Origin: Rhodoplanes serenus
Lineage (GTDB): Bacteria > Pseudomonadota > Alphaproteobacteria > Rhizobiales > Xanthobacteraceae
Assembly: GCA_009720755.1 (NCBI GenBank)
Contig: WNKV01000004.1
Location: forward strand, 272,042-336,041
Direction: 5' to 3'
DNA length: 64,000 nucleotides
The position numbers and the translations under genes are program-made. The notes below the pieces were generated by a model. The model saw only the letters and a program-made list of their open reading frames with translations. It was not told the origin of the DNA and ran no database searches. Shown piece after piece: positions 10,206 to 62,825 of this stretch (positions within the stretch are counted from its first letter, which is position 1; the number at the start of each line of letters is the position of its first letter).

Positions 10206-11456
<1,251 letters not shown>

Positions 11457-14075: not shown

Positions 14076-14100
14076 CACCAACCGGGCTCGAAACGTCCCG

Positions 14101-15180: not shown

Positions 15181-15235
15181 CGCGACGCGCGGCGCCGAGC
15201 GGCCCGATGCCTCTCGCAACCGAAGGAAATCGGAT

Positions 15236-15421
15236 GTGACAATGCACAAGCCGCGATTTCCGCTCCGCTGGCGCCACCGGCTGTTTCGGATGCTGAAACC
15301 GCGCACTCTGCTGGGCCTGTCGCTCCAGCTCGCGGTGGCGACCGCGGTGCTGATCGCGGCGCTCTACTGGACCGGCCAGCTCGGTGCCATCCACCGCCTG
15401 TGGGTCGCATGGACCTCATGA
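15236..15421 (+). CDS. One-TM microprotein between prfA and prmC
   Basis: ORF of 61 codons starting GTG 15236 (or ATG 15242), preceded by an AAGGAAAT Shine-Dalgarno-like sequence. A basic N-terminus (KPRFPLRWRHRLFRMLKPR) is followed by one hydrophobic helix (about 24-44). Its TGA overlaps the probable prmC start in an ATGA junction at 15418-15421, which argues that it is translated and coupled to prmC. I recognise no family. A role in membrane association or simply in translational coupling is speculation. Confidence 0.55.
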   Translation: MTMHKPRFPLRWRHRLFRMLKPRTLLGLSLQLAVATAVLIAALYWTGQLGAIHRLWVAWTS

Positions 15422-16299: not shown

Positions 16300-16790
16300 T
16301 ATACAAATTTGAAACACATTTCCAAGAACGGACAAAAAAGAGCTTGATTATCCGGCTGGAGTGACTAGTTTCCGCTTACGGAATCGACCTGGGTCGGGGT
16401 TGAATCGCTGCATTGGAGGCCCCGAGCATGGCTCGGCGAGGCGGGCAGCGGGGGACACGGTCGGCAAACATCCGAATGAACAGGATTGATGCCGCACCAC
16501 CCGGGATCGAGATACTTCAGCGGCTCCAGCGTGCGCTCAGGGCGAAGTCACCCAAGAGCCATGCGGGCATCGTGAGAGGTTGACAGCGCCGCGGACATGC
16601 CGCGGTGGCAAGCTGAGCCAACAGACGTGGGAAATGCGGCGCGTCCCTGGATGCCCCGCAAGCATCGGCTGCATGCGCGAGCATCGTCGCGCTGTCGCAC
16701 TCGATGGTGATCGGCCATGCGCCGATCCGAGCAACCGTTGATGGAACCGGCGGAGGACCCGCCGCAATCAGAGGTGGCCAGAAGCCGAAC
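16300..16790. other. Intergenic region prmC / DUF4167 gene
   Basis: These 491 bases contain no ORF with convincing composition on either strand. The first 80 bases after prmC are AT-rich (ACAAATTTGAAACACATTTCC, GGACAAAAAAGAGC) and may hold a promoter or terminator. The remainder has no clear inverted repeat. A long 5' leader or small RNA for the downstream RNA-binding-type protein is possible but unsupported. Confidence 0.35.
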
Positions 16791-17465
16791 ATGAGAAACG
16801 GTCAGAACAAGCGCATGCGGGGCCGTAACCGCAAGAGCCACAACCCGCTGACGCGGGTCTACGAGTCGAACGGCCCCGACGTGAAAATTCGCGGCACCGC
16901 GTCGCACGTCGCCGAGAAGTACATGCAGCTCGCACGCGACGCGCAGGCGTCCGGCGATCCGGTTTCGGCCGAGAACTACTTCCAGCACGCCGAGCATTAT
17001 CTCCGCCTGATCGCGGCCGCGCAGGAGCAGTTCCGTCAGACGCCGTCGTTCTTCCGTGGCGAGGGCGGCGGCGCCGACCCGCGCGACGAGGGCTACGACG
17101 ACGACGGCGACGACCAGCCGTCGCTGCCGGGCACCGGCGAGCAACCGGCCTTCGGGACCCGTGACCCGCAACCCTATCTGCCGCGCGACGCCCAGTTCTT
17201 CGTCCCGCGCGAGCAGCCCTACGGACGTCAGCCGCAGCCGGCGGCGAGCGACGAGGGCATCGACCGGCTGCCGTCCTTTGTCACCGGCGCGCCGGCGCCG
17301 CAGCCCCAGGGCGGCGGCCAGAACGGCTTCGAGGGCCAGGGCGGCCAAACCGCCGACCGCTTCCCGCTGCATCGCCGCCGTCGCCGCCATCGCACCCGCG
17401 GTGAAGCGGGGGCCGCGGCGGAGGCCAGCGAGGACACCGCAGCCGGCGGACCGACGCAGGACTGA
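16791..17465 (+). CDS. DUF4167 domain-containing protein
   Basis: Protein of 224 aa. The N-terminal 80 residues are the conserved alphaproteobacterial DUF4167: very basic start (RNGQNKRMRGRNRKSHNPL), then YESNGPDVKIRGTASHVAEKYMQLARDAQASGDPVSAENYFQHAEHY with helical repeats. The remainder is low complexity, rich in P, Q, G and R, ending in a basic RRRRRHRTR patch. The basic, disordered make-up suggests nucleic-acid binding, but function is not established. The ORF extends upstream to 16704; ATG 16791 matches the family start. The gene follows prmC in many relatives. Confidence 0.88.
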   Translation: MRNGQNKRMRGRNRKSHNPLTRVYESNGPDVKIRGTASHVAEKYMQLARDAQASGDPVSAENYFQHAEHYLRLIAAAQEQFRQTPSFFRGEGGGADPRDEGYDDDGDDQPSLPGTGEQPAFGTRDPQPYLPRDAQFFVPREQPYGRQPQPAASDEGIDRLPSFVTGAPAPQPQGGGQNGFEGQGGQTADRFPLHRRRRRHRTRGEAGAAAEASEDTAAGGPTQD

Positions 17466-17602
17466 TCGGAGCTTCGGATCGATCGACCGAGGCGCCGGCC
17501 CGGCGGCCCCCGCCGCAGTGAACGGCCGGCCCCCCGCGGCAGCGTGTGACCGACCAGCCCGCGCCGGCGCAGATCGCCGGCGGCACGACGGCCGACGCTG
17601 CG

Positions 17603-51464: not shown

Positions 51465-51522
51465 GTTCGCTGATTTGGAGCGGGCGATGGGAATCGAACC
51501 CACGACATACAGCTTGGGAAGC
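51465..51522. repeat. attL: 58-bp direct repeat with tRNA-Gly 3' remnant
   Basis: Identical over 58 bases to 62740-62797. It contains the tRNA 3' end (TGG complement of CCA at 51477-51479), T arm and half the anticodon arm on the minus strand, then diverges (GCCCACATAACC). It is not a functional tRNA gene. Confidence 0.93.
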
Positions 51523-51666
51523 CCACATAACCATCTGATTTAGCGGCCTGAAGTTCCTCGACCAAGGGATTCGGTCGTGGGTTCTTCAAGGAGACCGAAC
51601 GGCGGCTGCGGGGACCGGAAAGTAGTCCGGGACCCGCAGTCCGAAACGGAGCCGGCCCCGTTCTGG

Positions 51667-51825
51667 ATGGTCTATTGGGGCCGAACCTGGCTCGCAACCA
51701 TCCGAGAGCGAAGCGACGGCTTTTATGCCGAGCGACCGGACGGGGCCTGCACCGGACCCTATTCTTCAATTCGGACTGCCGTTGCGGCGATCGGCCCCGT
51801 GGCGCGCCCGGACCGAGGCGGCTGA
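51667..51825 (+). CDS. Small hypothetical protein of the element
   Basis: From ATG 51667 about 52 aa (or 82 aa from GTG 51577): MVYWGRTWLATIRERSDGFYAERPDGACTG PYSSIRTAVAAIG. The aromatic, turn-rich pattern W..TW.A.I...DGFYAERPDG..TGPY looks like a compact beta domain. It ends 2 bases before the next start, which suggests co-translation with the HTH protein. I cannot name a family. Confidence 0.5.
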   Translation: MVYWGRTWLATIRERSDGFYAERPDGACTGPYSSIRTAVAAIGPVARPDRGG

Positions 51826-51827
51826 CC

Positions 51828-52559
51828 GTGGGCGGGGTTGCCATCCTGCCGCGCGATCGGCTCGCCTGGATCAGGCAGATGGCCGAGGACCGGGAACTGT
51901 CGCACGTGGCATTCCGCGTGGCGGTCCTGATCGGCGGGTACTTCAACAGCAAGACAGGAAAGACGCACGTCGGCCTGCAGCGGGTCGCCGATGATCTCGG
52001 GATCGGAAGAGCCACGGTCGCGCGCGCGCTGGACGAGCTGTCGGACAGACCGGAGAGGCCGCGCCGGCGGGCTGGCCGCGGCCATCTCAGGATCACCTCG
52101 GGCGGCGGAAGGCACCTCGCCAACGAGTACCAGATGATTCTCAAAACGGTCTCACAGGTGAGACCGTTTTGCGAACCGGAAACAGTCTCAAATCGGGCCG
52201 GAAACAGTCTCACCCGTGAGACCCCTACTCTTACTTCTCCTTCGGAGAAGAACTCTACGCGCGCGCCCACGCGCGCGAGGGGCCCACGCACTGCCGAGCA
52301 CGACGCTCCGCCCAAGGTGGGCGACCGGGAGGGTGCGGTCGGGATCGAGATCAAGCCGGGGACACCTGAGTTCGCGGCATTGCTCCTGCACTTCGAAGCG
52401 ACCGGGCAAGGCGGGAAGGCGTCGCTCATGCGCGCTGCCGAGCTGCAGCGCCGGTCCTACTTCGCCCGATCGGAGTGGGTTGCCGCCGCTCTGCCCCGCC
52501 CACCGCTCCGCGTCGTCGCTTCGGCCACCGGCCCCCCGGGAGGGGGGTCAAAAGTCTGA
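51828..52559 (+). CDS. Helix-turn-helix replication-type protein with internal iterons
   Basis: About 243 aa from GTG 51828. The N-terminal domain (LPRDRLAWIRQMAEDRELSHVAFRVAVLIGGYFNSKTGKTHVGLQRVADDLGIGRATVARALDELSD) is a winged-helix of the HTH_36 kind common in plasmid and phage replication proteins, with a basic wing (RPRRRAGRGHLRI). A low-complexity middle is encoded by repeated GTCTCAC/GTGAGAC DNA motifs (52143-52222). The C-terminal part (IKPGTPEFAALLLHFEATGQGGKASLMRAAELQRRSYFARSEW) may bind a partner. A replication-initiator role is inferred from domain and iterons. Confidence 0.7.
   Translation: MGGVAILPRDRLAWIRQMAEDRELSHVAFRVAVLIGGYFNSKTGKTHVGLQRVADDLGIGRATVARALDELSDRPERPRRRAGRGHLRITSGGGRHLANEYQMILKTVSQVRPFCEPETVSNRAGNSLTRETPTLTSPSEKNSTRAPTRARGPRTAEHDAPPKVGDREGAVGIEIKPGTPEFAALLLHFEATGQGGKASLMRAAELQRRSYFARSEWVAAALPRPPLRVVASATGPPGGGSKV
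52143..52222. repeat. Iteron-like repeats and palindromes inside the HTH gene
   Basis: AAAACGGTCTCAC (52143-52155) pairs with GTGAGACCGTTTT (52158-52170) over a two-base loop. CCGGAAACAGTCTCA occurs at 52176-52190 and again at 52198-52212, exactly 22 bases apart, and the second is followed by a GTCTCAC-CC-GTGAGAC dyad (52207-52222). Five GTCTCA/TGAGAC units lie in 80 bases, an arrangement like phage or plasmid origins placed inside their initiator gene. Confidence 0.7.
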
Positions 52560-52668
52560 GCCGCCCGGCCCCGGACCGGTTGGGTAGTCACGCGCGAAAT
52601 TGCGCGGAATTCCGGAGTTTTTTTCTCTCGACGGAAACGGAAGTACCTGCGGCACAAGGACTTTGAGC

Positions 52669-53007
52669 ATGATCAACGAACGAAAGGCCGAACTGCCGAA
52701 GCCGCGGCGCGTGCCGCCCTATGTGTCGCGGCGGACCGCGGCAGCGCTGCTCGATCTCTCGACCTCGGGGTTCAACTCCTGGGTCCGGAACGGAACGCTG
52801 CCGCCGCCGATGCCGGGCACGCCGGCGCACGAGAGCCGGTGGAGCTGGGGCCAGATCGAACGCTGGCTCGCCGGCGACCGGACGACGGTCCGCGGCGACC
52901 TGTTCACGCCGGCCGCGACGACACAGCCAGGCAAGCGTCGAGGACCGCCGCGCGGCACCGGCGGCCGACCCCACGCCAGCAACACCCACCAGGAGGACTG
53001 TCCATGA
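52669..53007 (+). CDS. AlpA-like helix-turn-helix protein
   Basis: Protein of 112 aa: PPYVSRRTAAALLDLSTSGFNSWVRNGTLPPPMPGTPAHESRWSWGQIERWLAG is an AlpA/excisionase-type HTH (HTH_17). The tail is basic (GKRRGPPRGTGGRP). Such proteins act as directionality factors or transcriptional activators of integrated elements. ATG 52669 starts the domain. It overlaps the next gene as ATGA at 53004-53007. Confidence 0.75.
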   Translation: MINERKAELPKPRRVPPYVSRRTAAALLDLSTSGFNSWVRNGTLPPPMPGTPAHESRWSWGQIERWLAGDRTTVRGDLFTPAATTQPGKRRGPPRGTGGRPHASNTHQEDCP

Positions 53008-53303
53008 CCACGCAATCCGACCGCTCGACGGTGATGCGCGAGCTGAACGAGTTCTGGCACACGCTCGCGAGCCGGATGATCCGAGACGCGCTCTCGAACG
53101 GCGTCGAGCCGGAGCTGATCAGCGAATCGATGCTCACCGTCGCGATCGGCCACGAGCTGAGCCTGAAGGGCTTCCGCGAGCTCGCCAACGACCTCGGCGC
53201 CATCGCGGGCAACTTCGCGCGCCAGGCCGAGAAGGTCGAGAAAATCGCGGCCGCTGCCGGTGTCTCACCCACACCGTCCACAACGCAGCCCCGGAGGCAT
53301 TGA
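53004..53303 (+). CDS. Hypothetical protein upstream of capsid genes
   Basis: Protein of 99 aa, mainly helical: SDRSTVMRELNEFWHTLASRMIRDALSNGVEPELISESMLTVAIGHELSLKGFRELANDLGAIAGNFARQAEKVEKIAAAAG. AGGAGG lies eight bases before ATG 53004. No family recognised; position between the AlpA-like gene and the prohead protease would suit a small terminase or scaffold-like protein, but no motif supports either. Confidence 0.6.
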   Translation: MTTQSDRSTVMRELNEFWHTLASRMIRDALSNGVEPELISESMLTVAIGHELSLKGFRELANDLGAIAGNFARQAEKVEKIAAAAGVSPTPSTTQPRRH

Positions 53304-53304
53304 C

Positions 53305-53475
53305 ATGGCGCGTGAACCGGAGTCTCCTCGCAACCGCGTCGTGATCGCAGATCGGCACCACCGCGGATGCGGGGTCGCCGGTGACACGGGCACCTTCGGC
53401 ACCGCGGATGCGGGTCGCAGGCGGAACCAGAACCGGGCCTTCGGGCCTGAGCCGCTTTGCGCGCCGAGGTGTTGA
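53305..53475 (+). CDS. Possible 56-aa hypothetical protein
   Basis: ATG 53305, one base after the previous stop, with CGGAGG eight bases upstream (CCCCGGAGGCATTGACATG). The product is short, polar and Arg/Gly-rich. Translation is suggested only by the ribosome site and packing between neighbours; it could be spacer. Confidence 0.35.
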   Translation: MAREPESPRNRVVIADRHHRGCGVAGDTGTFGTADAGRRRNQNRAFGPEPLCAPRC

Positions 53476-53477
53476 CG

Positions 53478-54188
53478 ATGCTCCTCAAGAACCACTCCGA
53501 CGTTTCCGCGACGCGGGTGTCTCCGCTGGCCGAGTTCAAGTTGGCCCAGGGCGACGCCGGCGTGTTCACCGGGCACGCGAGCGTGTTCGGCAACGTGGAC
53601 AGCTACGGCGACGTGGTCGAGCGAGGGGCGTTCGCCGACACCCTCGTCCAGCACCGGAGCGAGGGCGCCATGCCGCCGCTCCTGTGGAGCCACGATCCGC
53701 GCGAGCCGATCGGCCGCATCCTCGATCTGCGCGAGGACGCGGTGGGCCTGTTCCTCCGGGCGCAGCTTAATCTCGACAGCGAGCGCGGGCGCGAGGCGCA
53801 CGCTCATGTCAGGGCGGGCGACGTGGGAGGGCTCTCGATCGGCTTCCGGGTGAACCCCGGCGGCCGGATCAAGAATCCGGACGGCACCACCTCGCTCCGT
53901 TCGATCCAGTTGGACGAGATTTCGGTCGTGGCGCTCCCGGCGAACCGCCGGGCGCGCATCGCCGCGGCCAAGTCACTCGGCTCGATGGCCGAGCTTGAAC
54001 GTGGCCTCCGGGGCGAAGTGCCGCTCGCGCTCCCGCGCGGTGCGGCGGCGAAGATCGCGGCGGCCGGCTGGCCGGCGCTCGTCGGCGGCGGCGAACCCGA
54101 AACCCACCTCCTCGACCTCGACCAGCTCGCCACGCGCATGGACAGCGCGCTCGGCGACCTCCGCAACCTGAAAGGACTTTTCCGATGA
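53478..54188 (+). CDS. HK97-family prohead (capsid maturation) protease
   Basis: Serine protease of 236 aa (S78 clan). GVFTGHASVFGNVDSYGDVVERGAFADTL is the N-terminal signature, catalytic H72 is in LLWSHDPREPIGRIL and S120 in GGLSIGFRV, followed by LRSIQLDEISVVALPANRRARI. It would trim the delta domain of the capsid protein encoded next. The usual portal gene is not upstream. It overlaps the capsid gene by ATGA (54185-54188). ATG 53478 chosen; GTG 53457 is also in frame. Confidence 0.92.
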   Translation: MLLKNHSDVSATRVSPLAEFKLAQGDAGVFTGHASVFGNVDSYGDVVERGAFADTLVQHRSEGAMPPLLWSHDPREPIGRILDLREDAVGLFLRAQLNLDSERGREAHAHVRAGDVGGLSIGFRVNPGGRIKNPDGTTSLRSIQLDEISVVALPANRRARIAAAKSLGSMAELERGLRGEVPLALPRGAAAKIAAAGWPALVGGGEPETHLLDLDQLATRMDSALGDLRNLKGLFR

Positions 54189-55474
54189 ACCGTAATCTGC
54201 TGATCGCGACGCTCGGCGTCGCATGCCTCGTCGTCGTTTGCCTCGTGCTGTTCGGCGTCCCGGTGTTCACTGCCGGCGATGCGGTGAGCATGGCCGACAT
54301 CCATTGGACGTTCGCCGAGGGCGGGGCCGCCGTGACGGCCGCCGACATCCTGAAGAAGTTCGAGACCAACCATTCGGAGGTGACGGACGCGCTCAAGCGC
54401 GCGGGGATGAAGCACGACGAGATTGCCGCGCGACTCACCGAGCTCGAGCAGAAGGCGGCCCGGCGCGGGAGCGCCGGAGCGGAGGTGCCCGAGACCTGGG
54501 GTCATCAGGTCGCCCGCCAGCTCGCGGGGCAGGGTCAGGCCCGCATCAACTCGAACTTCAAGGGCCGCGCGCGGTTCGAGGTGAAGACCGTCGCGACGCT
54601 CACGAGCGCCAACGGCGGCGCGGCCGGCGACGCTGGGGCGCTCGTCACTCCCGATCGGCAAAGCAGCGTGATCGAGCTGCCGCGCCGGAAGCTCAAGATG
54701 CGCGACGTGTTCGCGCCCGGGCAGACCACCTCGAACCTGATCGAGTGGCCGCGGCACAACGCTCGGAGCAACAACGCGGCCACGGTCGCCGAAGGCGCGC
54801 TCAAGCCGCAATCCGACATGACCTTCGAAATGGGATCGTGGCCGGTGCGCACCATCGCGCATTGGGTCCTCGCGTCCCGCCAAATGCTGGACGACGCGCC
54901 GCAGCTCCAGTCGCTGATCGACTCCGATCTGCGCTACGGCCTGGACGACGTGGAGGACGGGCAGCTCCTCAACGGCGGCGGCACCGGAACCGACCTCTCC
55001 GGCGTCTACACCAACGCGACGGCGTTCTCTCCGCCGATCCAGTTCACGGCGGCCGGGAACCTGACGAAGATCGACGTTCTGCTGCTCGCCATCGCGCAGC
55101 TCCAGGCGCTCAAGCACGAGCCGGACTTCATCGCGATCAACCCGCTCGACTGGGCGGATATCCAGGCGATCAAGACCGACGACGGCGCCTATCTCGGGCA
55201 GGGGCCGTTCTCGGCTCAGGCTGCCGTGCTGTGGCGGCTGCCGGTGGTCGAGACCACCAGTATGACGCTGGATCGGTTCCTCGTCGGCTCCGGCAAGCGG
55301 GGTGCGCAGATCTTCGACCGGCAGGAATCGACGGTGGAGATCAGCACCGAGGACAGCGACAATTTCCGCAAGAACCTCGTCACCGTCCTCGCCGAGAAGC
55401 GCTTGGCGTTCGTCATCAAGCGGAACGACGCCTTCGTGAAGGGCGCGTTCACCGACGCACTCGCCGCGGCATGA
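54185..55474 (+). CDS. HK97-fold major capsid protein with an N-terminal hydrophobic segment
   Basis: Protein of 429 aa. From about residue 100 it is a standard HK97 phage capsid: FEVKTVATLTSANGGAAGDAGALVTPDRQSSVIELPRRKLKMRDVFAPGQTTSNLIEWPRH ... VEDGQLLNGGGTGTDLSGVYTNA ... SAQAAVLWRLPVVETTSM ... LVTVLAEKRLAFVIKRNDAFVKG. Residues 36-95 form the helical delta domain. Unusual is residues 5-30 (LLIATLGVACLVVVCLVLFGVPVF), a strong membrane or signal segment in frame. ATG 54185 has AAGGA at 8-9 bases; an internal ATG 54290 would omit the segment. Confidence 0.92.
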   Translation: MNRNLLIATLGVACLVVVCLVLFGVPVFTAGDAVSMADIHWTFAEGGAAVTAADILKKFETNHSEVTDALKRAGMKHDEIAARLTELEQKAARRGSAGAEVPETWGHQVARQLAGQGQARINSNFKGRARFEVKTVATLTSANGGAAGDAGALVTPDRQSSVIELPRRKLKMRDVFAPGQTTSNLIEWPRHNARSNNAATVAEGALKPQSDMTFEMGSWPVRTIAHWVLASRQMLDDAPQLQSLIDSDLRYGLDDVEDGQLLNGGGTGTDLSGVYTNATAFSPPIQFTAAGNLTKIDVLLLAIAQLQALKHEPDFIAINPLDWADIQAIKTDDGAYLGQGPFSAQAAVLWRLPVVETTSMTLDRFLVGSGKRGAQIFDRQESTVEISTEDSDNFRKNLVTVLAEKRLAFVIKRNDAFVKGAFTDALAAA

Positions 55475-55477
55475 TCT

Positions 55478-55573
55478 GAGAATTGTTCCTGCTCGGAACA
55501 TTTCTCGGCTCGGGCCTCAAGCTCGGTGCGTCGTGGTTCAGGATCGGAAACTGCCTCACTTGAGGCATTTTCC
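55478..55573. repeat. Two hairpins after the capsid gene
   Basis: GAGAATTGTTCC (55478-55489) pairs with GGAACATTTCTC (55495-55506), one mismatch. GGAAACTGCCTCA (55546-55558) pairs with TGAGGCATTTTCC (55561-55573), one mismatch; the latter resembles the GGAAACAGTCTCA iteron at 52178. They may separate the capsid transcript from the next genes or be protein sites. Confidence 0.6.
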
Positions 55574-55607
55574 TCCAGGGACATGGCGCCGCAGACGGAT
55601 ATCGGTC

Positions 55608-56111
55608 ATGAGACGAAACAGAGGGCGACCCCGCAAGCCCGGTGCCACCGTCGTTGCGCGCGACGTGATGGGCAACCCCGTCGGCGAGCCGATCCGGCTC
55701 GGCCGCCGGCGGCATACCCTCGCGGCCGTGATGGCCCGCTGTGCCGATCCCCGCCGGCCCCACATGGTGTCGGTGCATCGGCCCGGCGAGCCGGTCGCGC
55801 CGGAGGATCACACCGTTGTGCTGCGCGCAGCGTGGGCGACCAGGCTGGTCCGGCCCGACGAGATCGTCCTGATCACCTATATCCCCCTCGGGGGCGGCGC
55901 GGGCGGGCAAAACACCGCCAAGCAGATCGGCTCGGCTGTGGCGATGCTGGCGCTCGCCGTCGCGGCGCCCTATGTCGCTACGGGGTTGCTCGCCAGTGCG
56001 TCATCGGCCACTGGAGTCATGCTGAGCTACAACGCTTTCACGGCCGCCCATTTTGGCATCTCGGCCGGTCTCGTAGTCGGCCCCACGTTCACCAGGGAGC
56101 GAACCTCATGA
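55608..56111 (+). CDS. Truncated phage tail-tip (TipJ-like) N-terminal fragment
   Basis: Product of 167 aa. The middle reads MVSVHRPGEPVAPEDHTVVLRAAWATRLVRPDEIVLITYIPLGGGAGGQNTAKQIGSAVAMLALAVAAPYVA, which resembles the N-terminal part of tail-tip / host-specificity proteins: the ubiquitin-like start, the LP-GGGGG-N turn and a hydrophobic helix. Those proteins run for many hundreds of residues; this one stops shortly after the helix (TGVMLSYNAFTAAHFGIS...). So it is a remnant or a repurposed short form. ATGA overlap with the next gene suggests it is still translated. Confidence 0.55.
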   Translation: MRRNRGRPRKPGATVVARDVMGNPVGEPIRLGRRRHTLAAVMARCADPRRPHMVSVHRPGEPVAPEDHTVVLRAAWATRLVRPDEIVLITYIPLGGGAGGQNTAKQIGSAVAMLALAVAAPYVATGLLASASSATGVMLSYNAFTAAHFGISAGLVVGPTFTRERTS

Positions 56112-56785
56112 GTGCCCTCGTTGGTTTTTTGCAGCGTGATCGCGTCCACCTGGCCGTCGACGGAGCCAACTACACGGCCGATGGCACCATCGGCTCGTTC
56201 GGTGACAAGGCGATGGTGCTCCCCCATCTCGGAATGGCAATCGCCGCGCGTGGGGTGGTCTGGCTCCTTCCAGCACTTGTGAGCGGGATCAGCTTGGCTT
56301 TCGCCTCGTTCGACGAGGCCGCCGGCGAGCTGTCAGACTTCCTTCGCGACCTTATTGAACGGAACCGGAGCGTGATCGACCTGAACCCGAACGGCGCCGC
56401 CTATGAGGTTGCCGCCGCGGGGTGGTCGAGCGCGGATGGACCATCGCTCGTGGTGGTCAAGAGCTATGGGTCTGACGCTTGGAAGACACAGCACGTCGGT
56501 GCCTATCTCGCTCCGTGTGACGGCACGCTGCTCGACGAGCTTGCGACTCGGGGTGCGCATCCTGAGCAGTTGGCCGATGCCGATCCGGTCGCGGCGGCGC
56601 AGACGATCATCCACGAGCAGCGGCGCCGCGCCTGGGTGGGGCCTGCTGGGGAGACACAGGCCATTGGCGGCTTCGTCGCTCTGACGACCTGCGGGCGGGA
56701 CGAGATCACAACGCGCATCGTTAAGCGGTGGCCCCAGGACCGGGTAGGTGAGAGGATCAGGGCCGAGGTCAGGACAGTAGCGTAG
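56108..56785 (+). CDS. Hypothetical phage protein, proteasome-like N-terminus
   Basis: Protein of 225 aa. HLAVDGANYTADGTIGSFGDKAMVLPHLGMAIAARG has the look of an Ntn-hydrolase (20S proteasome beta-type) entry: a strand, DGA.Y, then K and a hydrophobic helix. This start recurs in proteins carried by Rhizobiales prophages near tail genes. The rest (SSADGPSLVVVKSYGSDAWKTQHVGAYLAP, GGFVALTTCGRDEITTRIVKRWPQD) is unassigned. Proteolytic activity is speculative. Start overlaps the upstream stop. Confidence 0.55.
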   Translation: MSALVGFLQRDRVHLAVDGANYTADGTIGSFGDKAMVLPHLGMAIAARGVVWLLPALVSGISLAFASFDEAAGELSDFLRDLIERNRSVIDLNPNGAAYEVAAAGWSSADGPSLVVVKSYGSDAWKTQHVGAYLAPCDGTLLDELATRGAHPEQLADADPVAAAQTIIHEQRRRAWVGPAGETQAIGGFVALTTCGRDEITTRIVKRWPQDRVGERIRAEVRTVA

Positions 56786-57116
56786 GGCGGCCCACATCTC
56801 TGGCTTGCCGACCACGGCCGCCTCCGGTGGCGGTCCTGATCCGGAGCCCAAGAACGGGGCTGGAACCGGCGGGCGCGCCCGCCGTACAAAGGATGACTTC
56901 GCCAACTTGGCGAAGTCAGACGAAGCGGCCCCTCGGTCTGGCCGGGGGCACCGCGCCGAGGCGTTGGCGCTGTTCGATCAGAGGGGTCCATCACGGCGTG
57001 TGTCCGGGCCTGGCTCGCCGCCCCGGCCGGAGATCGAGCGGCCACGTGAATGACCTGGCCGAACTGGCGGCAGTGCTGTGGGTCTTTAGCCTGCCAGCCG
57101 TGACGCAATCATCCGA
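56786..57116. other. Intergenic region with perfect CCAACTTGG palindrome
   Basis: Between convergent genes. TGACTTCGCCAA (56894-56905), C, TTGGCGAAGTCA (56907-56918) is a perfect 12-base-arm palindrome. It is followed by GACGAAGCGGCC, which would encode DEAA as in the ParB-like remnants at 58.6 and 60.4 kb. The 82-codon frame 56805-57053 is low complexity and I do not call it a gene. Confidence 0.55.
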
Positions 57117-57968
57117 TCAGCACCCATCAACAATCCGGCGAAAGTCGCTTTCAGTGATGATGCGCATCTGCGCCCCGTTCCGGATCAACTTCTCGGCCTT
57201 CTGGTGCTTCGAACTTTTTTCTTGGCCCCGTAGCTTTCGCGCGTCCTGATCTCCGACGACGAGTATTGTCGTCTGCTTCGTGACGGTATCGGCCACATCG
57301 CATCCGATCTGTGCCGCGAGGTCCGCGGCCTCCCGTCTGGGGATTTCGAGTGAGCCGGTGAAGACCAGGACCTCTCCGGCAAGCACACCGTCCGGATTGC
57401 CGGCGCGGCTGACTCTCTTAGGTACGGCTCCGGGCAACGGCTTGTTGATGCGGTCGAGCCAATCAGCCGTCGACAGGCCAGTGTCCTGAATCGCCCGGCA
57501 CAGTACCAAGCCTGCGGCGCGAGCATCTTCCGTCGCATCGTGGTGCTTGAACTCGATCCCGAATTCTGCCGCAAGGTTGGCGAGGCCATAGCCGGACCTC
57601 GCGAATTTATCCCAGGCCCGGCGAGCGACTCTGGCGGTATCAATCCACATGCATGTTGGTAGAGGAAATCCAAAGCGCGCCGCCGCGCGACACAGCGCGA
57701 GCCGATCGAAAATCGTGTGATGCGCAACAGGACCGGACAGGTCGCTGTTGATCACCGGGAACGCTTCGCGCAGCGTAGGCGCGCCACGCACGTCGTCAGC
57801 CGTGATCCCGTGTACCGCGGTGTTCATCGGGTCGAAGTGATCTTCTGGATCGACCAAGAAGCCGACTTGCCGAACGACAGTGCCATTCCGAAAATAGACC
57901 ATTCCGACAGCGCAGATGCTCGCGAGATCGGCGTTGGCCGTCTCGACGTCGATAGCGATGAAATCCAT
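57117..57968 (-). CDS. DEDDh 3'-5' exonuclease with C-terminal BRCT domain
   Basis: Protein of 283 aa. The DnaQ-like nuclease (1-165) has D7 and E9 in FIAIDVETA, D88 in AHHTIFDRLAL, and H143 with D148 in FKHHDATEDARAAG, a complete DEDDh set. Residues about 194-283 are a BRCT domain (GVLAGEVLVFTGSLEIPRREAADLAAQIGCDVADTVTKQTTILVVGD). The combination occurs in chromosomal and mobile genes as an epsilon-like or DNA-repair exonuclease. Here it is encoded on the strand opposite to the structural genes, as accessory cargo. Confidence 0.88.
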   Translation of the reverse strand: MDFIAIDVETANADLASICAVGMVYFRNGTVVRQVGFLVDPEDHFDPMNTAVHGITADDVRGAPTLREAFPVINSDLSGPVAHHTIFDRLALCRAAARFGFPLPTCMWIDTARVARRAWDKFARSGYGLANLAAEFGIEFKHHDATEDARAAGLVLCRAIQDTGLSTADWLDRINKPLPGAVPKRVSRAGNPDGVLAGEVLVFTGSLEIPRREAADLAAQIGCDVADTVTKQTTILVVGDQDARKLRGQEKSSKHQKAEKLIRNGAQMRIITESDFRRIVDGC

Positions 57969-58092
57969 TTGGTTACCCCGCTCAAAGCCGCGAGAAATAT
58001 CGGCAGAGTAACAGGCCGTTTCGGAGCAGTCCCGGAACGATGCCAAGGCTGGGGTCGCTGGATGACCCAGCTGCCCTCGATCAGATGCCGTT

Positions 58093-58380
58093 TTATTCAA
58101 CCGCCATCCGCGCCGACTCCTGGACCATCGACCAGCTAACGATCCTGCGGCCGTCGTCAAAGAACGCGACCGTGAAAGCCTCGGTGTTTCCGGCCGTCCG
58201 AATGGTCCGAAGGGTTCGACGCGCGAAGTTCGTGTAGAAGTCTTCCGGCTCGCGGACAGTATCGAGTTGAACTTCGAAGTCGGGGTGCCGATTTCCATCG
58301 ACGTCGTAGACACGCATGCTCAGCATTGACGCGCTCCACCCACAGTGCCGATCTGATGAAATTAGCCGCCAATCGTTCAC
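58093..58380 (-). CDS. Hypothetical protein
   Basis: From GTG 58380, 95 aa: WRLISSDRHCGWSASMLSMRVYDVDGNRHPDFEVQLDTVREPEDFYTNFARRTLRTIRTAGNTEAFTVAFFDDGRRIVSWSMV. Composition is protein-like, with strands and charged turns. No family recognised. It lies upstream of the exonuclease gene on the same strand, 124 bases away. Confidence 0.5.
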   Translation of the reverse strand: MNDWRLISSDRHCGWSASMLSMRVYDVDGNRHPDFEVQLDTVREPEDFYTNFARRTLRTIRTAGNTEAFTVAFFDDGRRIVSWSMVQESARMAVE

Positions 58381-58492
58381 GCGAAATTAACGAACGCGGA
58401 GTTCGGCGAAGTGGCTCACGGGCTTGCCGCTTGGCGCGCGACCTCGCCCCATGAAGGGCGCTGCGCGGTGTTGATCGGTTAGGCGAAGCAGT

Positions 58493-58894
58493 TCACCGTC
58501 TTGGCGGGCTCTGCCGCAGTGGCGCCACCTTGGCGAGCGCGGCCCCGCCCAGGGCTTCCCCCCGGGTGCAGTCCCTCCTAATGGTGCGCTCAGCCTGGCC
58601 TGTAGATGAGGCCGCCGCTTCGTCGTAACGGGTCGCGATCTCGGGAGGCTGTTGGCCAACTTGGCCAGCAGCCTCCGCCTTAGCTTTCGTCGCCGCGCCT
58701 CCGGCGGCACCACGTTTCGTCTCCGGGTGCAGCTCCTGCCAGATCGCCTTGCGGCGGGTGTTGTAGGACGCCCGCTCGGCGGCCGAGAGGTCGTTGCGGG
58801 CAAGATTCTCGTCGATCAGCATCAGCTCGGCGCGCAGATCGTCGACCTCGACCACGACAGCCGGAATCGTCGTGCGCCCGAGCTTGCGAATACT
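58493..58894 (-). pseudogene. ParB-like protein, C-terminal remnant
   Basis: On the minus strand the frame reads RKLGRTTIPAVVVEVDDLRAELMLIDENLARNDLSAAERASYNTRRKAIWQELHPETKRGAAGG ... TRYDEAAASSTGQAERTIRRDCTRGEALG, the part of a ParB/Spo0J-like DNA-binding family that follows the nuclease-like motif (IDENLxRxxLxxxE is characteristic). The N-terminal ParB motif is missing; upstream codons are unrelated. A near-perfect palindrome (58644-58676) lies inside. Confidence 0.65.
58644..58676. repeat. CCAACTTGG palindrome, arms of 16
   Basis: GGAGGCTGTTGGCCAA (58644-58659), C, TTGGCCAGCAGCCTCC (58661-58676) with one mismatch. Same CCAA-N-TTGG centre as the palindromes at 56894-56918 and 60481-60519 but different arms. 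Confidence 0.7.
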
Positions 58895-59183
58895 TCGGCC
58901 GCGGGCCGTGCGCGACCGCGCCCCGTGAGGGGCGCTGCGCGGTGTTGTTGATTTGGAAATCGAATACGGGCAGTCTGGCGGACGGAGCCTGAGAACTCCC
59001 GTCAGCAGCCTTGCCGGGCTGCGCTGACACCAGAGCGTTGGCAGGGCGATCCTTGCCGGGATCATCATCGCCAACGAGTGCGAACGTGCCGATTACCGTC
59101 GGCGCGACCGGCACCACTATGCCGGGAGTGCGGCGGCTATACAAGACCCTTCGGGGGAAGGCCGTCGCGCATCGTCTCTGGCG

Positions 59184-60116
59184 ATGTTCTCAGACTCCCG
59201 GTGCCAGTGCCGTCCGCTGGCGCCCGGCCCTGAGAAGCCGGTTGATCCAGAGACCACCGTGACCACTCAGCATCCGATGATGCCGCCTCTCCGGAAAACT
59301 GCGCAAATTTGCGCAGTATCCACCACCTTCGGCAAATTTGCCGAAAGTGGACCACCCCGGGAAGCGGCGCCCAGCTCCCGCCGAGGCTTCCTCGGCCGGG
59401 CTATGGCCGCGCTCGCCAGCACCTCGCTGGCCGCGGCAGGAACGGCGCTGCCGGCCTCCGGCCGACCGGCCGAGGACCCCCGGCTCGTCGTCATTGGCGA
59501 GCGGATCGGACCGCTCCTGACGGCCTACAGGGCCGCGGTCACCCGCCGCGCCGAGGCACGGGCGGCCGCCGAGCGGCTGTGCCCGCCCCTGCCGGTTCCT
59601 ATGATCCGCCGGCGGGACGACGACAGGAGCCTGAGGCGGTGCGCTGACGACGCCGTCGATATCGAGGGGCAGGCGATTTTTCCCGAGGACGACAGCATGC
59701 CGCCGCTGCGGGTCTATTGGCCGGGTGCCGTTCGTCGCGCCGTGGAGGCCGGCGATTTGCCGACTGCGTCCGCCCGGTCCGTCCTCGGCCAGCGGGTCCG
59801 CGCTGTGCTGGCAGCCGGCGACGATTACGATGCGCGCCGCAGCGCCGCGATCGAAGCCGCCGGTCTACTTGCGGCAAGAGAGGAGCAGTATCGCGCCGCC
59901 CAGGAAATCGACCAGATCGCTCGCGAGGTGTGCCGGCTCGTCCCGTCGACGACCGCCGGGGCCGTCGTCGTCGCGCGTGTGGCGACTGCACTTGCCGAAG
60001 TCGAGCGCGAGATCGCCAGAGAAGGCTACGCCTTCGCGATGCTGGGGAGCGTCCTTGCCGATACCCTGATTCGCGGATACGCGAGCGTGCCAGCCATGGA
60101 GAAGGCCCATGGTTGA
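59184..60116 (+). CDS. Hypothetical protein with Tat-like signal motif
   Basis: Up to 310 aa; the true start is unclear (ATG 59184, GTG 59259, ATG 59277 or ATG 59403). S-S-R-R-G-F-L-G (near residue 66-73) followed by a hydrophobic AMAALASTSLAAAGTALPA stretch resembles a twin-arginine signal. The rest is helical and Ala/Arg-rich (YRAAVTRRAEARAAAERL, RLVPSTTAGAVVVARVATALAEVEREIAREGYAFAML). Similar 'SRRGFL' proteins without assigned function occur in Rhizobiales islands. Two palindromes (59299-59350) fall in the N-terminal coding part. It overlaps the next gene by 8 bases. Confidence 0.55.
   Translation: MFSDSRCQCRPLAPGPEKPVDPETTVTTQHPMMPPLRKTAQICAVSTTFGKFAESGPPREAAPSSRRGFLGRAMAALASTSLAAAGTALPASGRPAEDPRLVVIGERIGPLLTAYRAAVTRRAEARAAAERLCPPLPVPMIRRRDDDRSLRRCADDAVDIEGQAIFPEDDSMPPLRVYWPGAVRRAVEAGDLPTASARSVLGQRVRAVLAAGDDYDARRSAAIEAAGLLAAREEQYRAAQEIDQIAREVCRLVPSTTAGAVVVARVATALAEVEREIAREGYAFAMLGSVLADTLIRGYASVPAMEKAHG
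59299..59350. repeat. Twin CAAATTTG palindromes
   Basis: CTGCGCAAATTTGCGCAG (59299-59316) is perfect over 18 bases. CCACCTTCGGCAAA (59323-59336) pairs with TTTGCCGAAAGTGG (59337-59350), one mismatch. Both share the CAAATTTG centre with different arms. Confidence 0.7.
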
Positions 60117-60408
60117 GGTGCAGACGTCCGAAGCCGCTGTTCTCGATTCAGTCGATCACCCCGAGAACGAAGAACTCGTCTCCTACCAGGTCGTTTGCGA
60201 CATGGAGGAACCGCTTAACGATATAGCCGACTTCGCGGCAGCCCTGACGATGCTGGCGTCCGATCTACAGGAACCTGCGAGCGGTGCGGTGTGCCGCATC
60301 GGACGAACGATCGGTGCCCTCGCCGAAGGGCTCAAGAAGCAGCACGAAGCGCTGTTCCGCATGCTCGGCGCGAGCAAGGCAGAAGACGAGAGCGACACCA
60401 ACGAGTGA
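60109..60408 (+). CDS. Hypothetical acidic protein
   Basis: Protein of 99 aa, acidic and helical (NEELVSYQVVCDMEEPLNDIADFAAALTMLASDLQEPASGAVCRIGRTIGALAEGLKKQHEALFRML). ATG 60109 overlaps the upstream gene by 8 bases. The shape (about 100 aa, MEEP..D...A..M) recalls small mobile-element proteins of unknown function. No family assigned. Confidence 0.55.
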   Translation: MVEVQTSEAAVLDSVDHPENEELVSYQVVCDMEEPLNDIADFAAALTMLASDLQEPASGAVCRIGRTIGALAEGLKKQHEALFRMLGASKAEDESDTNE

Positions 60409-60409
60409 A

Positions 60410-60475
60410 CCGAGGGTGCAGTCTCTCTGCACGCTGTGCTCGGATTGGTCGGTGACTTCGGCTGCGGCCTCATCG
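60410..60475 (-). pseudogene. Second ParB-like remnant (short)
   Basis: On the minus strand the codons RHDEAAAEVTDQSEHSVQRDCTLG align with YDEAAASSTGQAERTIRRDCTRG of the 58.5-kb remnant, including the CTxG end. It is cut off immediately upstream by the 60481-60519 palindrome. Only about 22 codons are recognisable. Confidence 0.45.
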
Positions 60476-60480
60476 TGACG

Positions 60481-60519
60481 GGCCGGATAGAGTCGCCAAG
60501 TTGGCGACTCTATCCGGCC
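60481..60519. repeat. Perfect 39-bp palindrome with CCAAGTTGG centre
   Basis: GGCCGGATAGAGTCGCCAA (60481-60499), G, TTGGCGACTCTATCCGGCC (60501-60519): 19-base arms without mismatch. Lies in the spacer before the MerR-like gene, next to the second ParB remnant. Confidence 0.85.
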
Positions 60520-60640
60520 GTGCGGTTCACCCGAGCGACCGCAGGCAGGCTGACGTCGTGCGATCGGACCAAGCGAAAAATTTGCGGCTTGTCCGACCAA
60601 CCTGGCCGACCGTCCACAGGACTGGTGGCCGGCACTAGCT

Positions 60641-60683
60641 CGATGCTGCTGCATCGTGTATATGAGTCGATGCAACAGCATCG
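60641..60683. promoter_or_regulatory. Twin CGATGC-N4-GCATCG dyads, candidate operator of the MerR-like gene
   Basis: CGATGCTGCTGCATCG (60641-60656) and CGATGCAACAGCATCG (60668-60683) are each dyads and are also inverted relative to one another. They end 13 bases before ATG 60697, straddling TGTATATGAG (60657-60666), which could be a -10 region. Confidence 0.6.
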
Positions 60684-60696
60684 ACTGGAGAGAGGA

Positions 60697-61206
60697 ATGA
60701 GCGATCTCGACGAGGCCCGCTATTCACTCGGCCAGGTCGCCCGCTCGGTGGGGCTCCCTGAGAGCACCCTGCGGTCCTGGTTTCGCCGCGGTCATCTCGG
60801 CCTCGATCTTGGCGGGCGGTTGCGCGAGGCCCACGGGCATGCGCATGCGGTCAGCCTGCGTACAGCCCTGTGGGTTGGCGTCATCGCCGGGCTGGTCGAG
60901 CTGCAAATCCCGGCGGCCCGAGCCGCGAAGGTCGCGCGGGCGTTCGTCCACTTCGGCGAGCCGGACCACCAGACCGGTGCTCGGCGCCACCCCGGCGAGC
61001 TGTTCTCGGGCCATGGCGTGTGGACGCTGCTCGTTGTGCGCCCGGACGACGACCACGGCGTCATCATCAGGGCCGATCGGAAGACCCCGCTCGCGAACGT
61101 CTTCACCGGTCCTTCCGGGCGCACGGTCGGGGCGGTCGTGCTCTGGCTCAATCAGATCGACATGCGCGTTCGAACCGGCCTCGCCCATGTTGAGGCGCCC
61201 GCCTGA
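60697..61206 (+). CDS. MerR-like helix-turn-helix regulator
   Basis: Protein of 169 aa. RYSLGQVARSVGLPESTLRSWFRRGHLGLDL is a MerR/HTH_17 DNA-binding helix pair, followed by RTALWVGVIAGLVELQIPAARAAKVARAFVHFG, the dimer-like helix often seen in element-borne regulators. ATG 60697 has GAGAGGA just upstream and twin dyads before it, consistent with autoregulation. Its TGA overlaps the next start by one base. It may control excision or cargo expression. Confidence 0.72.
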   Translation: MSDLDEARYSLGQVARSVGLPESTLRSWFRRGHLGLDLGGRLREAHGHAHAVSLRTALWVGVIAGLVELQIPAARAAKVARAFVHFGEPDHQTGARRHPGELFSGHGVWTLLVVRPDDDHGVIIRADRKTPLANVFTGPSGRTVGAVVLWLNQIDMRVRTGLAHVEAPA

Positions 61207-61466
61207 TGCCCCGCCGCACACAATCGCCCCGCGATGGAGGTTTCTTCCCCAACGAGGACGAGATTGCGCGTCGCTTGAGCCAAGACCCCGCCGCGTGGCG
61301 TGCAAAGGCCGTCGTTCTCGAGCGAGAAGGGCTCCCCCGGGTCCACCCTCTGATGGGCGGTCGTTACTGGCCGGCAGTTCTGGCGTGGTGGAACCGATAC
61401 TACGGGCTGTCTAGCATCGAGGCGTCTCAACCCGATGGAGGAGAGAACCTCGATGCGCTCCGATGA
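61206..61466 (+). CDS. Small protein preceding the integrase
   Basis: Protein of 86 aa: NEDEIARRLSQDPAAWRAKAVVLEREGLPRVHPLMGGRYWPAVLAWWNRYYGL. The G-LPR-x-P-x-x-GGRYWPAV block is a recurrent sequence in small proteins encoded just upstream of tyrosine integrases in Rhizobiales elements; a DNA-binding or excisionase role is inferred from position. It overlaps the integrase start by 32 bases. Confidence 0.65.
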   Translation: MPRRTQSPRDGGFFPNEDEIARRLSQDPAAWRAKAVVLEREGLPRVHPLMGGRYWPAVLAWWNRYYGLSSIEASQPDGGENLDALR

Positions 61467-62667
61467 CGAGATGCCGGGCAAGAAGATCAGGCGGAATCGG
61501 CACGGTCCCGATCGGATTTACTGGGTGGCGCGGGCCGACTTGGTCGCCCAGGGCTACGAGCCCAGGACGGTGCGGCTGCATTACGATCCGACCGACCGCG
61601 TTCTGATCGCCGCGGCGTGCCAGCGTCTCCAGGCCGAGATGCTTGCTTGGGCCGCAGGCCGCCGCACGACTGATCGGCCTTTCGATGGCACGCTGGCCAG
61701 CCTGATCCGCCTGTACCAGCACGACCAGGCCAGTCCGTACCGGGACCTGAAATGGAACACCCGCCGCACCTATGACCAGGTGCTCGGCGTGATCGAGAAG
61801 GCGTTCGGCAAGCGGTCGCTCGCCGCGGTCGGCATCGCCGACTTCCGCCGCTGGTACGACGAGGCGAAGAAGCCGAAGCAGCCGGGCAGCCCGGAGCGGG
61901 TCCGCAAGGCGCACGGCATCATTGCAATGTTGCGCCGGCTGTTCGCCTACGGCGTCACGGCCGAGCATCCGCATTGCGCCCGGCTCGCCGCAATCCTCGA
62001 CGAAGCCCGGTTCAAGCAGCCGGGCCGGCGCCGCCTGAAGCTCGAACTCCCCCACGTCGAGGCATTCATCCCGAAGGCGATCGAGGCCGGCCGGCTTTCG
62101 CTCGCAATCGGCACCGCCATGCAGTTCGAAACCACGTTGCGGCAGCGCGACGTCATCGGCGAGTGGGAGCCTATCCCGGAGGGCGAGGCCCCGACCGGAA
62201 TCGTGCTCGGCGGTCGGCGATGGGTGCGCGGCCTGACCTGGGCGGACATCACGGCCGACCAGACCGTCAGCAAGGAGACCACGAAGACCGGCGCCGTGGT
62301 CGGGCACGACCTGCGGCTCTGCCCGCTGGTGCTCGACCTGCTCGACCAGGTCCCGGCCGAGCGTCGGGTCGGCCCGCTGATCATCGACGAGACGGCCGGG
62401 CGGCCCTACGCCGAGCACGCCTACGCTCGCGAGTGGCGCGTCATCGCCCGGACGGCCGGGATTCCGGATGCGGTCTGGAACATGGACGCCCGATCGGGCG
62501 GCATCTCCGAGGCCGACGATGCCGGCGCTGACCTGGATTTGATCCGGTCGGCGGCCGGCCACACCCAAGCCTCGACCACGGCCCGGTACGTGCGCGGCAC
62601 GATCGGCAAGAGCCGCAAGGTAGCCGAGCTTCGACTCGCCCATCGGACGTCGAAGAACGGATCGTAA
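61435..62667 (+). CDS. Tyrosine recombinase / site-specific integrase
   Basis: Protein of 410 aa. Core-binding domain about 85-180 (LASLIRLYQHDQASPYRDLKWNTRRTYDQVLGVIEKAFG), catalytic domain about 205-395. Arg of box I is at 236/238 (TTLRQRDVIG), box II region NMDARSGGI carries R353 but M in place of the usual His, H376 is in AAGHTQ, and nucleophile Y385 in TARYVRG. This matches a Rhizobiales integrase subgroup with altered box II. The gene ends 72 bases before the 58-bp attR repeat and tRNA-Gly, so it is the integrase of this element. Confidence 0.9.
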   Translation: MEERTSMRSDDEMPGKKIRRNRHGPDRIYWVARADLVAQGYEPRTVRLHYDPTDRVLIAAACQRLQAEMLAWAAGRRTTDRPFDGTLASLIRLYQHDQASPYRDLKWNTRRTYDQVLGVIEKAFGKRSLAAVGIADFRRWYDEAKKPKQPGSPERVRKAHGIIAMLRRLFAYGVTAEHPHCARLAAILDEARFKQPGRRRLKLELPHVEAFIPKAIEAGRLSLAIGTAMQFETTLRQRDVIGEWEPIPEGEAPTGIVLGGRRWVRGLTWADITADQTVSKETTKTGAVVGHDLRLCPLVLDLLDQVPAERRVGPLIIDETAGRPYAEHAYAREWRVIARTAGIPDAVWNMDARSGGISEADDAGADLDLIRSAAGHTQASTTARYVRGTIGKSRKVAELRLAHRTSKNGS

Positions 62668-62739
62668 TCAACGATGGGGAACGCGATGGGGAACGCGGGA
62701 ACGCGAGATCAGCGGTAGGCCGACCAAGCGATTGTCATT

Positions 62740-62797
62740 GTTCGCTGATTTGGAGCGGGCGATGGGAATCGAACCCACGACATACAGCTTGGGAAGC
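62740..62797. repeat. attR: 58-bp direct repeat within tRNA-Gly
   Basis: Identical to 51465-51522. It covers the tRNA from the anticodon stem to the CCA end plus 11 bases beyond, so integration restored a complete tRNA gene at this end. Confidence 0.93.
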
Positions 62798-62825
62798 TGT
62801 CGTTCTACCACTGAACTACGCCCGC
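62751..62825 (-). tRNA. tRNA-Gly (anticodon CCC)
   Basis: On the minus strand: GCGGGCG acceptor, TTCAGTGGTAGAA D arm, ACAGC-TTCCCAA-GCTGT anticodon arm (anticodon CCC), GTGGGTTCGATTCCCAT T arm, CGCCCGC, T discriminator and encoded CCA. All stems pair. Reads GGG codons. It is the integration site of the 11.3-kb element. Confidence 0.96.

Follow-up and report, generated by a model that had tools for sequence, protein, structure and literature searches.

In a 64,000-nucleotide stretch of the Rhodoplanes serenus genome (contig WNKV01000004.1, positions 272,042 to 336,041; here called the window) a small integrated element, which we label W, occupies positions 51465-62797. Loci compared with W carry labels such as L003, L055 and L056, and coordinates given for them are the loci's own. 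W is enclosed by 58-bp direct repeats that are perfectly identical and lie 11,275 bp apart from start to start. The right repeat overlaps an intact tRNA-Gly(CCC) gene on the minus strand, and the tyrosine integrase of W adjoins this gene and the attachment site attR (Table 1). An earlier note on this DNA, written from its letters alone, had described such ends, and comparison of the repeats and tRNA calls by ARAGORN and RF00005 bore it out. Three genomes of the same genus have the tRNA and the right flank (69-72 per cent similar) and no element in the roughly 6.5-6.9 kb read leftward. In a fourth (G444; L191 6726-9796) the same tRNA-Gly holds a different insert, about 3 kb long and flanked by 47-bp repeats.

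From the left end, the plus strand of W carries a helix-turn-helix (HTH) gene, a site resembling a phage cohesive-end site (cos), an AlpA-like gene, and genes for a 99-aa protein, a prohead protease, a major capsid protein, a fragment of a tail-fibre (J) protein and an N-terminal nucleophile (Ntn) hydrolase. Two reverse-strand genes come next, followed by a structured RNA, an open reading frame (ORF) with a twin-arginine-like signal, small genes, a MerR-like gene and the integrase. We scanned the sixteen ORFs of W against Pfam and PHROGs. The protease and capsid ORFs overlap by 4 bp and are the coupled pair that had been recognized from the letters. In these scans no ORF matched a family of portals, connectors, tail tubes, tape measures or lysis proteins or a P4 core-gene family (alpha, psu, delta and sid), and there was no recognizable small or large terminase subunit (TerS, TerL) or HNH protein; the sole terminase-labelled match was weak. 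The first description of W as free of packaging, tail and lysis genes stands for the portal, tail tube, tape measure, lysis genes and any recognizable terminase, and because of the J fragment it is nearly but not strictly true of tail genes. This fragment is 84 per cent identical over 390 bp of DNA to phage L056, whose ORF has at least 849 aa. The labels proposed for a replication-type HTH protein and for AlpA- and MerR-like regulators have matches behind them, but all are weak (PF13730 and PF13411 fall under the cut-off). The iterons proposed alongside them did not appear: a tandem-repeat search of W gave no array. Two palindromes with a common GCAAATTTGC lie at about 59297-59356.

Table 1. 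Features of element W, in window coordinates.
Feature	Position	Strand	Evidence or remark
attL, 58-bp direct repeat duplicating the end of the tRNA	51465..51522	+	identical to 62740-62797
HTH protein, possible replication protein	51828..52559	+	HTH_36 (PF13730) 3.4e-4, below cut-off; phrog_270 0.0045; weak
cos-like site; core GGGTC-N25-ACCGG at 52545-52579	52542..52612	+	phage-only profile 34.4 bits, E 3.1e-9 (partly circular, see text)
AlpA/excisionase-like HTH protein	52669..53007 (longest ORF from 52600)	+	phrog_66 1.5e-5, phrog_668 6e-5; weak label
99-aa protein, predicted three-helix, in the phage terS-terL-portal slot	53004..53303	+	leave-one-out profile 1.8e-6
Prohead protease (S78)	53457..54188	+	PF04586 1.7e-30; WSHD and GLSIG motifs
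HK97-fold major capsid protein, 429 aa, open frame	54185..55474	+	PF05065 2.8e-50; tree placement
N-terminal fragment of tail-fibre J gene	55533..56111	+	phrog_31 1.1e-4
Ntn hydrolase, predicted proteasome-type peptidase, 225 aa	56108..56785	+	model pLDDT 87.6; Foldseek 20S proteasome subunits, best E 6e-9
DnaQ-type exonuclease with BRCT	57117..58313	-	PF00929 5.7e-16, PF00533 1.5e-5; true start probably inside ORF
ParB-like protein, partial match	58493..59074	-	phrog_3264 2.7e-18
sRNA-Xcc1-like structured RNA	59121..59210	+	RF02221 50.1 bits, E 4e-8 (gathering score 53); fold z -4.3
ORF with twin-arginine-like signal (our reading), start uncertain	59184..60116	+	no family; similar ORF in L156
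Hypothetical protein	60109..60408	+	open frame alone
MerR/AlpA-like HTH protein	60436..61206	+	PF13411 0.0021, under cut-off; weak
Small protein accompanying integrase	61206..61466	+	precedes related integrase in 7/9 loci
Tyrosine integrase	61435..62667	+	phrog_1 1.7e-17; close relatives at same tRNA
attR, 58-bp repeat overlapping tRNA	62740..62797	+	identical to 51465-51522
tRNA-Gly(CCC), intact, integration target	62751..62825	-	ARAGORN; RF00005

One match counts against the absence of a terminase. The first 57 residues of the Ntn hydrolase match phrog_13702, a 'terminase large subunit' family of 218 positions, at 0.0015 (0.0055 for the longer ORF), and the counterpart in L156 matches it at 4.3e-4. 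A structure search on two of the proteins, of the kind the earlier note had suggested for hidden portal or terminase folds, gave only 20S proteasome subunits among the listed PDB matches of this protein and no match under E 1 for the 99-aa protein. Because the model has a proteasome fold and the protein is far shorter than the TerLs at the compared loci (about 500-600 aa), we do not read the label as meaning a terminase. The phrog_13702 label may itself be wrong, since the family matches the Ntn hydrolases of both W and L156.

We searched for relatives of the W capsid in 397 order-level, 391 family-level and 265 genus-level genomes, with E limits of 1e-20, 1e-60 and 1e-80, and obtained matches in thirty-three, sixteen and two genomes, respectively (W's own genome is included in the first two counts). 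Together with IMG/VR loci and L003 this gave 123 capsid contexts, which were scanned with portal and TerL profiles. Across all the loci compared in this work, the L055 contig occurs twice (as L055 and L266), L039 and L139 name one place and so do L020 and L160, and some phage loci are near-copies. Both portal and TerL were present in 108 contexts (L003 among them, by way of a surrounding prophage), and one or both were missing from fifteen. Six of these fifteen were set aside as truncated, namely three short contigs with a portal (L057, L065 and L067) and three loci that start at the capsid or close to it (L063, L072 and L111). By profile, ten capsid elements have no portal and terminase of their own: W, L003, L055, L100, L139, L156, L160, L168, L173 and L175. 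Thus relatives do not always carry these genes, a point on which the satellite proposal of the earlier note had been made to depend. The elements in L055, L100 and L168 are cut off by contig ends; in L055 and L100 there are also terL or portal stretches belonging to the gene that the element occupies. When the larger ORFs without a label in L139, L160, L168, L173 and L175 were compared with PHROGs, they matched helicase, primase or tail-fibre families or none with a function, and no portal or terminase.

Six of the ten are bounded by direct repeats. Besides W these are L160 (53 bp in tRNA-Phe, span 10,467 bp), L139 (16 bp, 10,239 bp), L003 (16 bp, 11,036 bp), L156 (15 bp at tRNA-Arg, 10,725 bp) and L173 (46 bp in tRNA-Lys, 16,046 bp), so that five of the six span 10.2-11.3 kb and L173 spans 16 kb; no bounding repeat was found for L175. 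Protease and capsid are kept together in seven of the ten elements by BLAST and in eight by profile. W is therefore one of a recurring group and not a lone wreck. Among the forty-six best database matches to its capsid, fourteen have a longest contig of 9.2-11.4 kb, compared with two of the next seventy-four, in a range chosen post hoc. In L139, a 1136-aa gene in reverse orientation (5977-9384) adjoins the satellite capsid and has no PHROG match.

The 99-aa protein of W lies where phages have terS, terL and portal. Counterparts stand before the protease or capsid in L003, L055, L160, L156, L100 and L168, making seven elements with W. Leave-one-out profiles recover those of L003 (4e-12), L055 (1.3e-22), L160 (5e-16), L156 (2.4e-5) and L168 (0.007) in addition to W, and do not recover that of L100; L139 has a match at 0.003 in the same slot. 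Among the loci searched, every match below 1e-2 lies in a capsid element lacking portal and terminase, and no portal-bearing phage locus falls under E 0.7. The three-helix model (pLDDT 80.5) has no structural match in the PDB under E 1.

A FastTree phylogeny of the capsids contains 168 rows, 113 of them from phages (phage capsid ORFs under 330 aa were left out). W, L156, L055 and L003 fall with forty-five database capsids (P0002-P0046, chosen as the best matches to the W capsid) in a clade of forty-nine rows with 99 per cent support, which includes none of the 113 phage capsids. Adding L100 and L168 gives a fifty-one-row group (92 per cent), and a weakly supported group of fifty-four rows adds L139, L160 and L152. 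Several satellite branches are long and the tree program warns of false joins, but the forty-nine-row clade is free of those rows. Judged by this tree, the W capsid belongs to a separate lineage. The named hosts of its close relatives are rhizobia and their kin, and the capsid of L156 is the same as one recorded under Bradyrhizobium sp. 4. Among the listed matches, twelve each from INPHARED (573 records) and PLSDB (thirty-two), all are below 60 per cent identity, and the two contexts read, phage vB_MseS-P1 and a Devosia plasmid, both have terminase and portal. A hydrophobic capsid N-terminus was considered as a mark of the satellites and dropped, as other homologues have it too.

The weakly supported group bears on whether W is a reduced capsid-forming phage-inducible chromosomal island (cf-PICI) that lost its terminase and portal and might since have become immobile. 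L152 combines TerL, portal, protease, capsid, a gene like those for tape measure proteins and an Ntn hydrolase, and its capsid joins those of L139 and L160, as such a history would predict. That join rests on the long branches flagged by the tree program. Among the nine members of the wider group whose context was read, L152 is the only one with a portal, so the loss, if there was one, was not recent, and we consider this history very improbable. L152 (about 2000-18400) is in its own right a compact integrase element and a cf-PICI-like relative.

The cos-like site was first seen as a mostly noncoding DNA match (W 52542-52616) in a comparison of W with the loci, and an iterative search found it in many phages directly before terS or terL. 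We built a profile from fifty distinct phage sites and no satellite sites, and with it found the site in seven of the ten elements. The scores were 40.9 bits for L156, 31.3 for L003, 27.6 for L055, 19.6 for L160 (24 nt only), 18.6 for L173 and 18.4 for L139; the 34.4 bits of W are partly circular because the training sites had been collected for their likeness to W. The other six scores and the tests on phages, IMG/VR and the W genome given below are free of this. The profile detected no site in L100, L168 or L175. As controls, forty Markov shuffles of each peaked at 11.6 bits, and the 51.4 kb left of W reached at most 5.1 bits. In all sixty-five phage loci that have it, the site lies upstream of terL on the same strand, at a distance of 32-3698 bp. 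In phage vB_MseS-P1, which was outside the training set, it lies within the 113 bp that separate the HNH gene from terS (2e-9); the record of this phage is circular, and the words 'cos' and 'termini' do not occur in the main text of its paper.

Physical ends are annotated for Rhizobium phage 16-3, whose record gives a 10-nt cohesive end at 60186-60195 and a terS that starts at 46. The junction reads GGGTC-N25-ACCGG, its last four letters are the first of the cohesive end, and its spacing is that of W and L056. Thirty-six of the seventy-four collected sites fit GGGTC-N25-28-ACC[G/C]G. In the 5.5-Mb genome of W a strict form of the pattern occurs once, at the W site, and it is absent from the reversed control. 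The site at 52542-52612 is thus likely a cos, to judge from its place and spacing.

Scanning IMG/VR with the 17-base core alone gave at least 120 loci. Among the 120 matches listed, ninety-two have terL 340-2378 bp downstream (median 563), eighteen are cut off within 900 bp and ten are others; an HNH gene lies upstream in fifty. The ten others comprise L266 (that is, L055), a phage whose TerL the profile had missed (L233), three loci that could not be placed (L225, L293 and L302) and five that resemble capsid-type satellites in gene order (L253, L290, L314, L315 and L329), with the capsids of L253 and L329 confirmed. L329 is a 12.4-kb contig that has, besides the site, genes for an HTH protein, a capsid, chaperone-like, tape-measure-like and AlpA-like proteins and an integrase, and no TerL or portal match. 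L253, L290, L314 and L315 form a second capsid-bearing satellite group in which the cos-like site comes after the capsid, and L253 has what we read as an AAA-ATPase-like gene, possibly for defence.

We think that W is probably a phage satellite (with a probability of about 0.7) that makes its own head shells and has its DNA packaged by a helper's terminase at the shared, likely cos site. Visible in the sequence itself are the repeats, the genes that W carries, the site it has in common with phages and the position of that site ahead of terS and terL, the shared small protein and the separate capsid clade. From these we infer a cos function for the site, heads of W's own making and a borrowed portal and tails. 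A capsid-encoding satellite had been proposed in the earlier note, and the relatives without terminase or portal, the common 99-aa protein, the site in seven of ten elements and the narrow range of sizes all speak for it. In the cycle we envisage, a phage of the HNH-terS-terL type would infect the cell or be induced in it, the integrase would excise W at the 58-bp repeats in tRNA-Gly, and W DNA would multiply. The protease and capsid would assemble and mature heads, probably small ones, since all but one of the six repeat-bounded elements measure 10.2-11.3 kb. Helper TerS and TerL, with the HNH protein and portal, would then cut W DNA at the site and pump it in, and the helper would supply connector and tail.

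Another way to read the same site is that the helper packages W from it while the W capsid and protease co-assemble with the helper's head or redirect it, changing its size. SaPIbov5, a cos-type satellite, carries a homologue of phage capsids, Ccm, that acts on the helper's head in this way (PMC8569155), and capsid genes of Gram-negative phage-inducible chromosomal islands (PICIs) can be dispensable according to PMC10111431. The capsid of W, though, is full-length and comes with its own protease, and most of the ten elements keep both, so self-made heads fit better; a role in altering helper heads is unlikely, if less so than the other alternatives.

If W were instead a decayed prophage, with terminase, portal and tail deleted and the capsid pair left over, the J fragment, the partial ParB-like match and the reverse-strand genes would be expected debris, and it would fit that no helper was found in the genome of W. 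Yet the attachment repeats are perfect; the integrase, protease and capsid frames are open; and profile scans show none of the prophage layout, in which protease and capsid come after portal and terminase. The recurrent size of 10-11 kb, the separate capsid clade, the confinement of the 99-aa protein to such elements among the searched loci and the keeping of a terS/terL-type site without terS or terL also argue against decay, which we regard as quite unlikely. A capsid taken over by the host for a cellular task, as a compartment or encapsulin-like shell, would agree with the HK97 fold and with the lack of recognized packaging genes. It sits poorly with a mobile-element frame, a dedicated prohead protease, a phage-type site and empty sites in genomes of the same genus, and is scarcely credible.

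Several relatives lie inside terminase genes. The element in L003 interrupts the terL of a resident prophage at its Walker A codons (VPKK / VPKKNSKTT). Copies of the 16-bp repeat stand at 6610 and 17646, and the element is flanked by HNH, site and terS on the left and by portal on the right. Of 131 sites compared, the best match to its own is the site of the prophage that houses it (rank 1 of 130, reciprocally). L100 shows integrase, then about the last forty-five terL codons, then portal, with one side on the contig. In L055 (near 3150) a TerL of the gene transfer agent (GTA) type, 58 per cent identical to that in the W genome, diverges after EDQMC, where the element appears to be inserted; only the left side is present. 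A terL piece in L315 ends in ISKKNS, at a Walker A break, and covers positions 5-93 of a TerL PHROG, and one in L290 begins with IPKKNSKST and covers 72-221 of the same PHROG. W itself is in a tRNA gene and not in a helper late gene, unlike L003, L055 and L100, which lie in terL. We give even odds to the wider proposal of an old and widespread satellite lineage that makes its own heads, outsources motor, portal and tail, and uses the helper's cos. Some of its members would sit in helper terL, even in its Walker A codons, and such a helper could not package itself until the satellite leaves.

The site of W ties best with those of L219 and L056 (131 sites), and L056 has J and ParB-like DNA in common with W as well (the latter 83 per cent identical over 106 bp). 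An L056-like phage is our predicted helper type. A resident helper was considered and rejected: the only PF04860 portal in the W genome is in a GTA-type cluster, and the 60 kb around it have no cos-like site. Gene transfer agents are clusters with TerL and portal and without integrase or attachment sites. W differs in having both of the latter, and the GTA-type cluster of its genome lies elsewhere, on contig C22. That cluster (G000:C22, about 143000-163000) has unrelated genes between its parts.

Several observations weigh against self-made heads filled at a shared cos. In the genome of W, a draft of fifty-one contigs searched for the PF04860-type portal family alone, no cognate helper was found, and the strict site is present only in W. 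Among TerL-bearing loci, 43 of 109 have no detectable site. To the circularity in W's own score must be added that the phage-trained profile misses the 16-3 junction; the link to that phage is by spacing alone and was noticed post hoc, so the identity of the site as a cos comes from place and spacing. The capsids of L173 and L175 fall outside the clade, among phages, and its forty-five database members are known by capsid alone. In place of the tape-measure gene of L003, L156 and L160, W has the J fragment, and it has two reverse-strand genes; a decaying element could show both. According to PMC10111431, transfer of Gram-negative PICIs did not need the capsid gene they carried. Lastly, integrases of the W type occur in islands with neither capsid nor cos-like site (L200, L201, L203 and L204; 67-78 per cent identical, L203 and L204 partial). 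Those of L200, L201 and L203 sit at tRNA-Gly(CCC) and L204 has the same core, which suggests that the integration module is swapped among islands. The integrase was accordingly dropped as a family marker, its close relatives carrying other cargo.

Among described satellites, the earlier note had compared W with cf-PICIs. The likeness holds in that these are small integrated satellites with their own capsid and head protease (the PF05065 and PF04586 genes in W) and depend on helper tails. It is only partial because the cf-PICI gene set extends to portal, connectors, TerS, TerL and HNH (PMC10690885), none of which was recognized in the sixteen ORFs of W. The Streptomyces satellites Mulch and Flayer likewise have their own capsid genes and depend on helpers but differ from W in carrying TerS, TerL and portal (same source). 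P4-like satellites and cos-type Staphylococcus aureus pathogenicity islands use helper terminase at a satellite cos (PMC10690885); they redirect helper capsid assembly, whereas W encodes a complete capsid and protease.

Gram-negative PICIs and helper-embedded PICIs (HE-PICIs) measure 10-20 kb, have integrase and AlpA and often a capsid gene, and some of them lie within late genes of the helper, among these a terminase gene (PMC10111431). Those discussed in that paper are without terS and presumed to use for packaging a cos that the helper has too. W is similar in its clear integrase, its cos-like site in common with helper-type phages and the lack of a recognizable terminase of its own. Its AlpA- and MerR-like matches are weak, and for a primase or replication zone there is one weak replication-HTH match. 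It departs from them in that its genes do not all run in one direction, two being on the reverse strand (57117-59074). The descriptions there give them counterparts of lambda's late genes, whereas elements of the W type have an HK97-type protease and capsid, their own small protein and a site of HNH-terS-terL phages. Further satellite families are named in PMC11389934 (the marine VEIMEs and tycheposons and those of soil bacteria). In the literature we searched, which took in no preprints and few subscription papers, we found no satellite family described from rhizobia or their kin. What is added here is the likely packaging site, the satellite-type small protein, the relatives embedded in terminase genes (one with a best-matching site) and the capsid lineage. 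If our reading is right, W closes a gap: some satellites take everything from the helper, cf-PICIs take nothing but its tails, and W would own the head and rent the motor. One would then ask if a satellite head can accept a portal and terminase of foreign origin and what fixes the size of the head. The cos-like site offers a simple rule, testable on sequence, for pairing satellites with helpers.

The Ntn hydrolase has relatives in L003 (13973-14662), L156 (13009-13716), L160 (6605-7288), L173 (14285-15052) and L152 (14199-15026). Its gene directly follows a tape-measure gene in L003, L156 and L160, and in L173 it follows a gene that BLAST joins to the tape-measure genes of L003 and others. In an alignment of eight members the second residue is always Ser or Thr, and D18 and K34 do not vary; with residue 2 taken as the first, the three fall at 1, 17 and 33, the catalytic numbering of proteasomes. 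Our guess is that it is a peptidase for tail or head maturation. A sequence search for more homologues returned one besides W.

The conserved noncoding stretch near 59100 resembles sRNA-Xcc1 and is therefore not novel. Similar DNA occurs in satellites and in another island (L003 14842-14963, L152 1879-2002 and L206 7215-7406).

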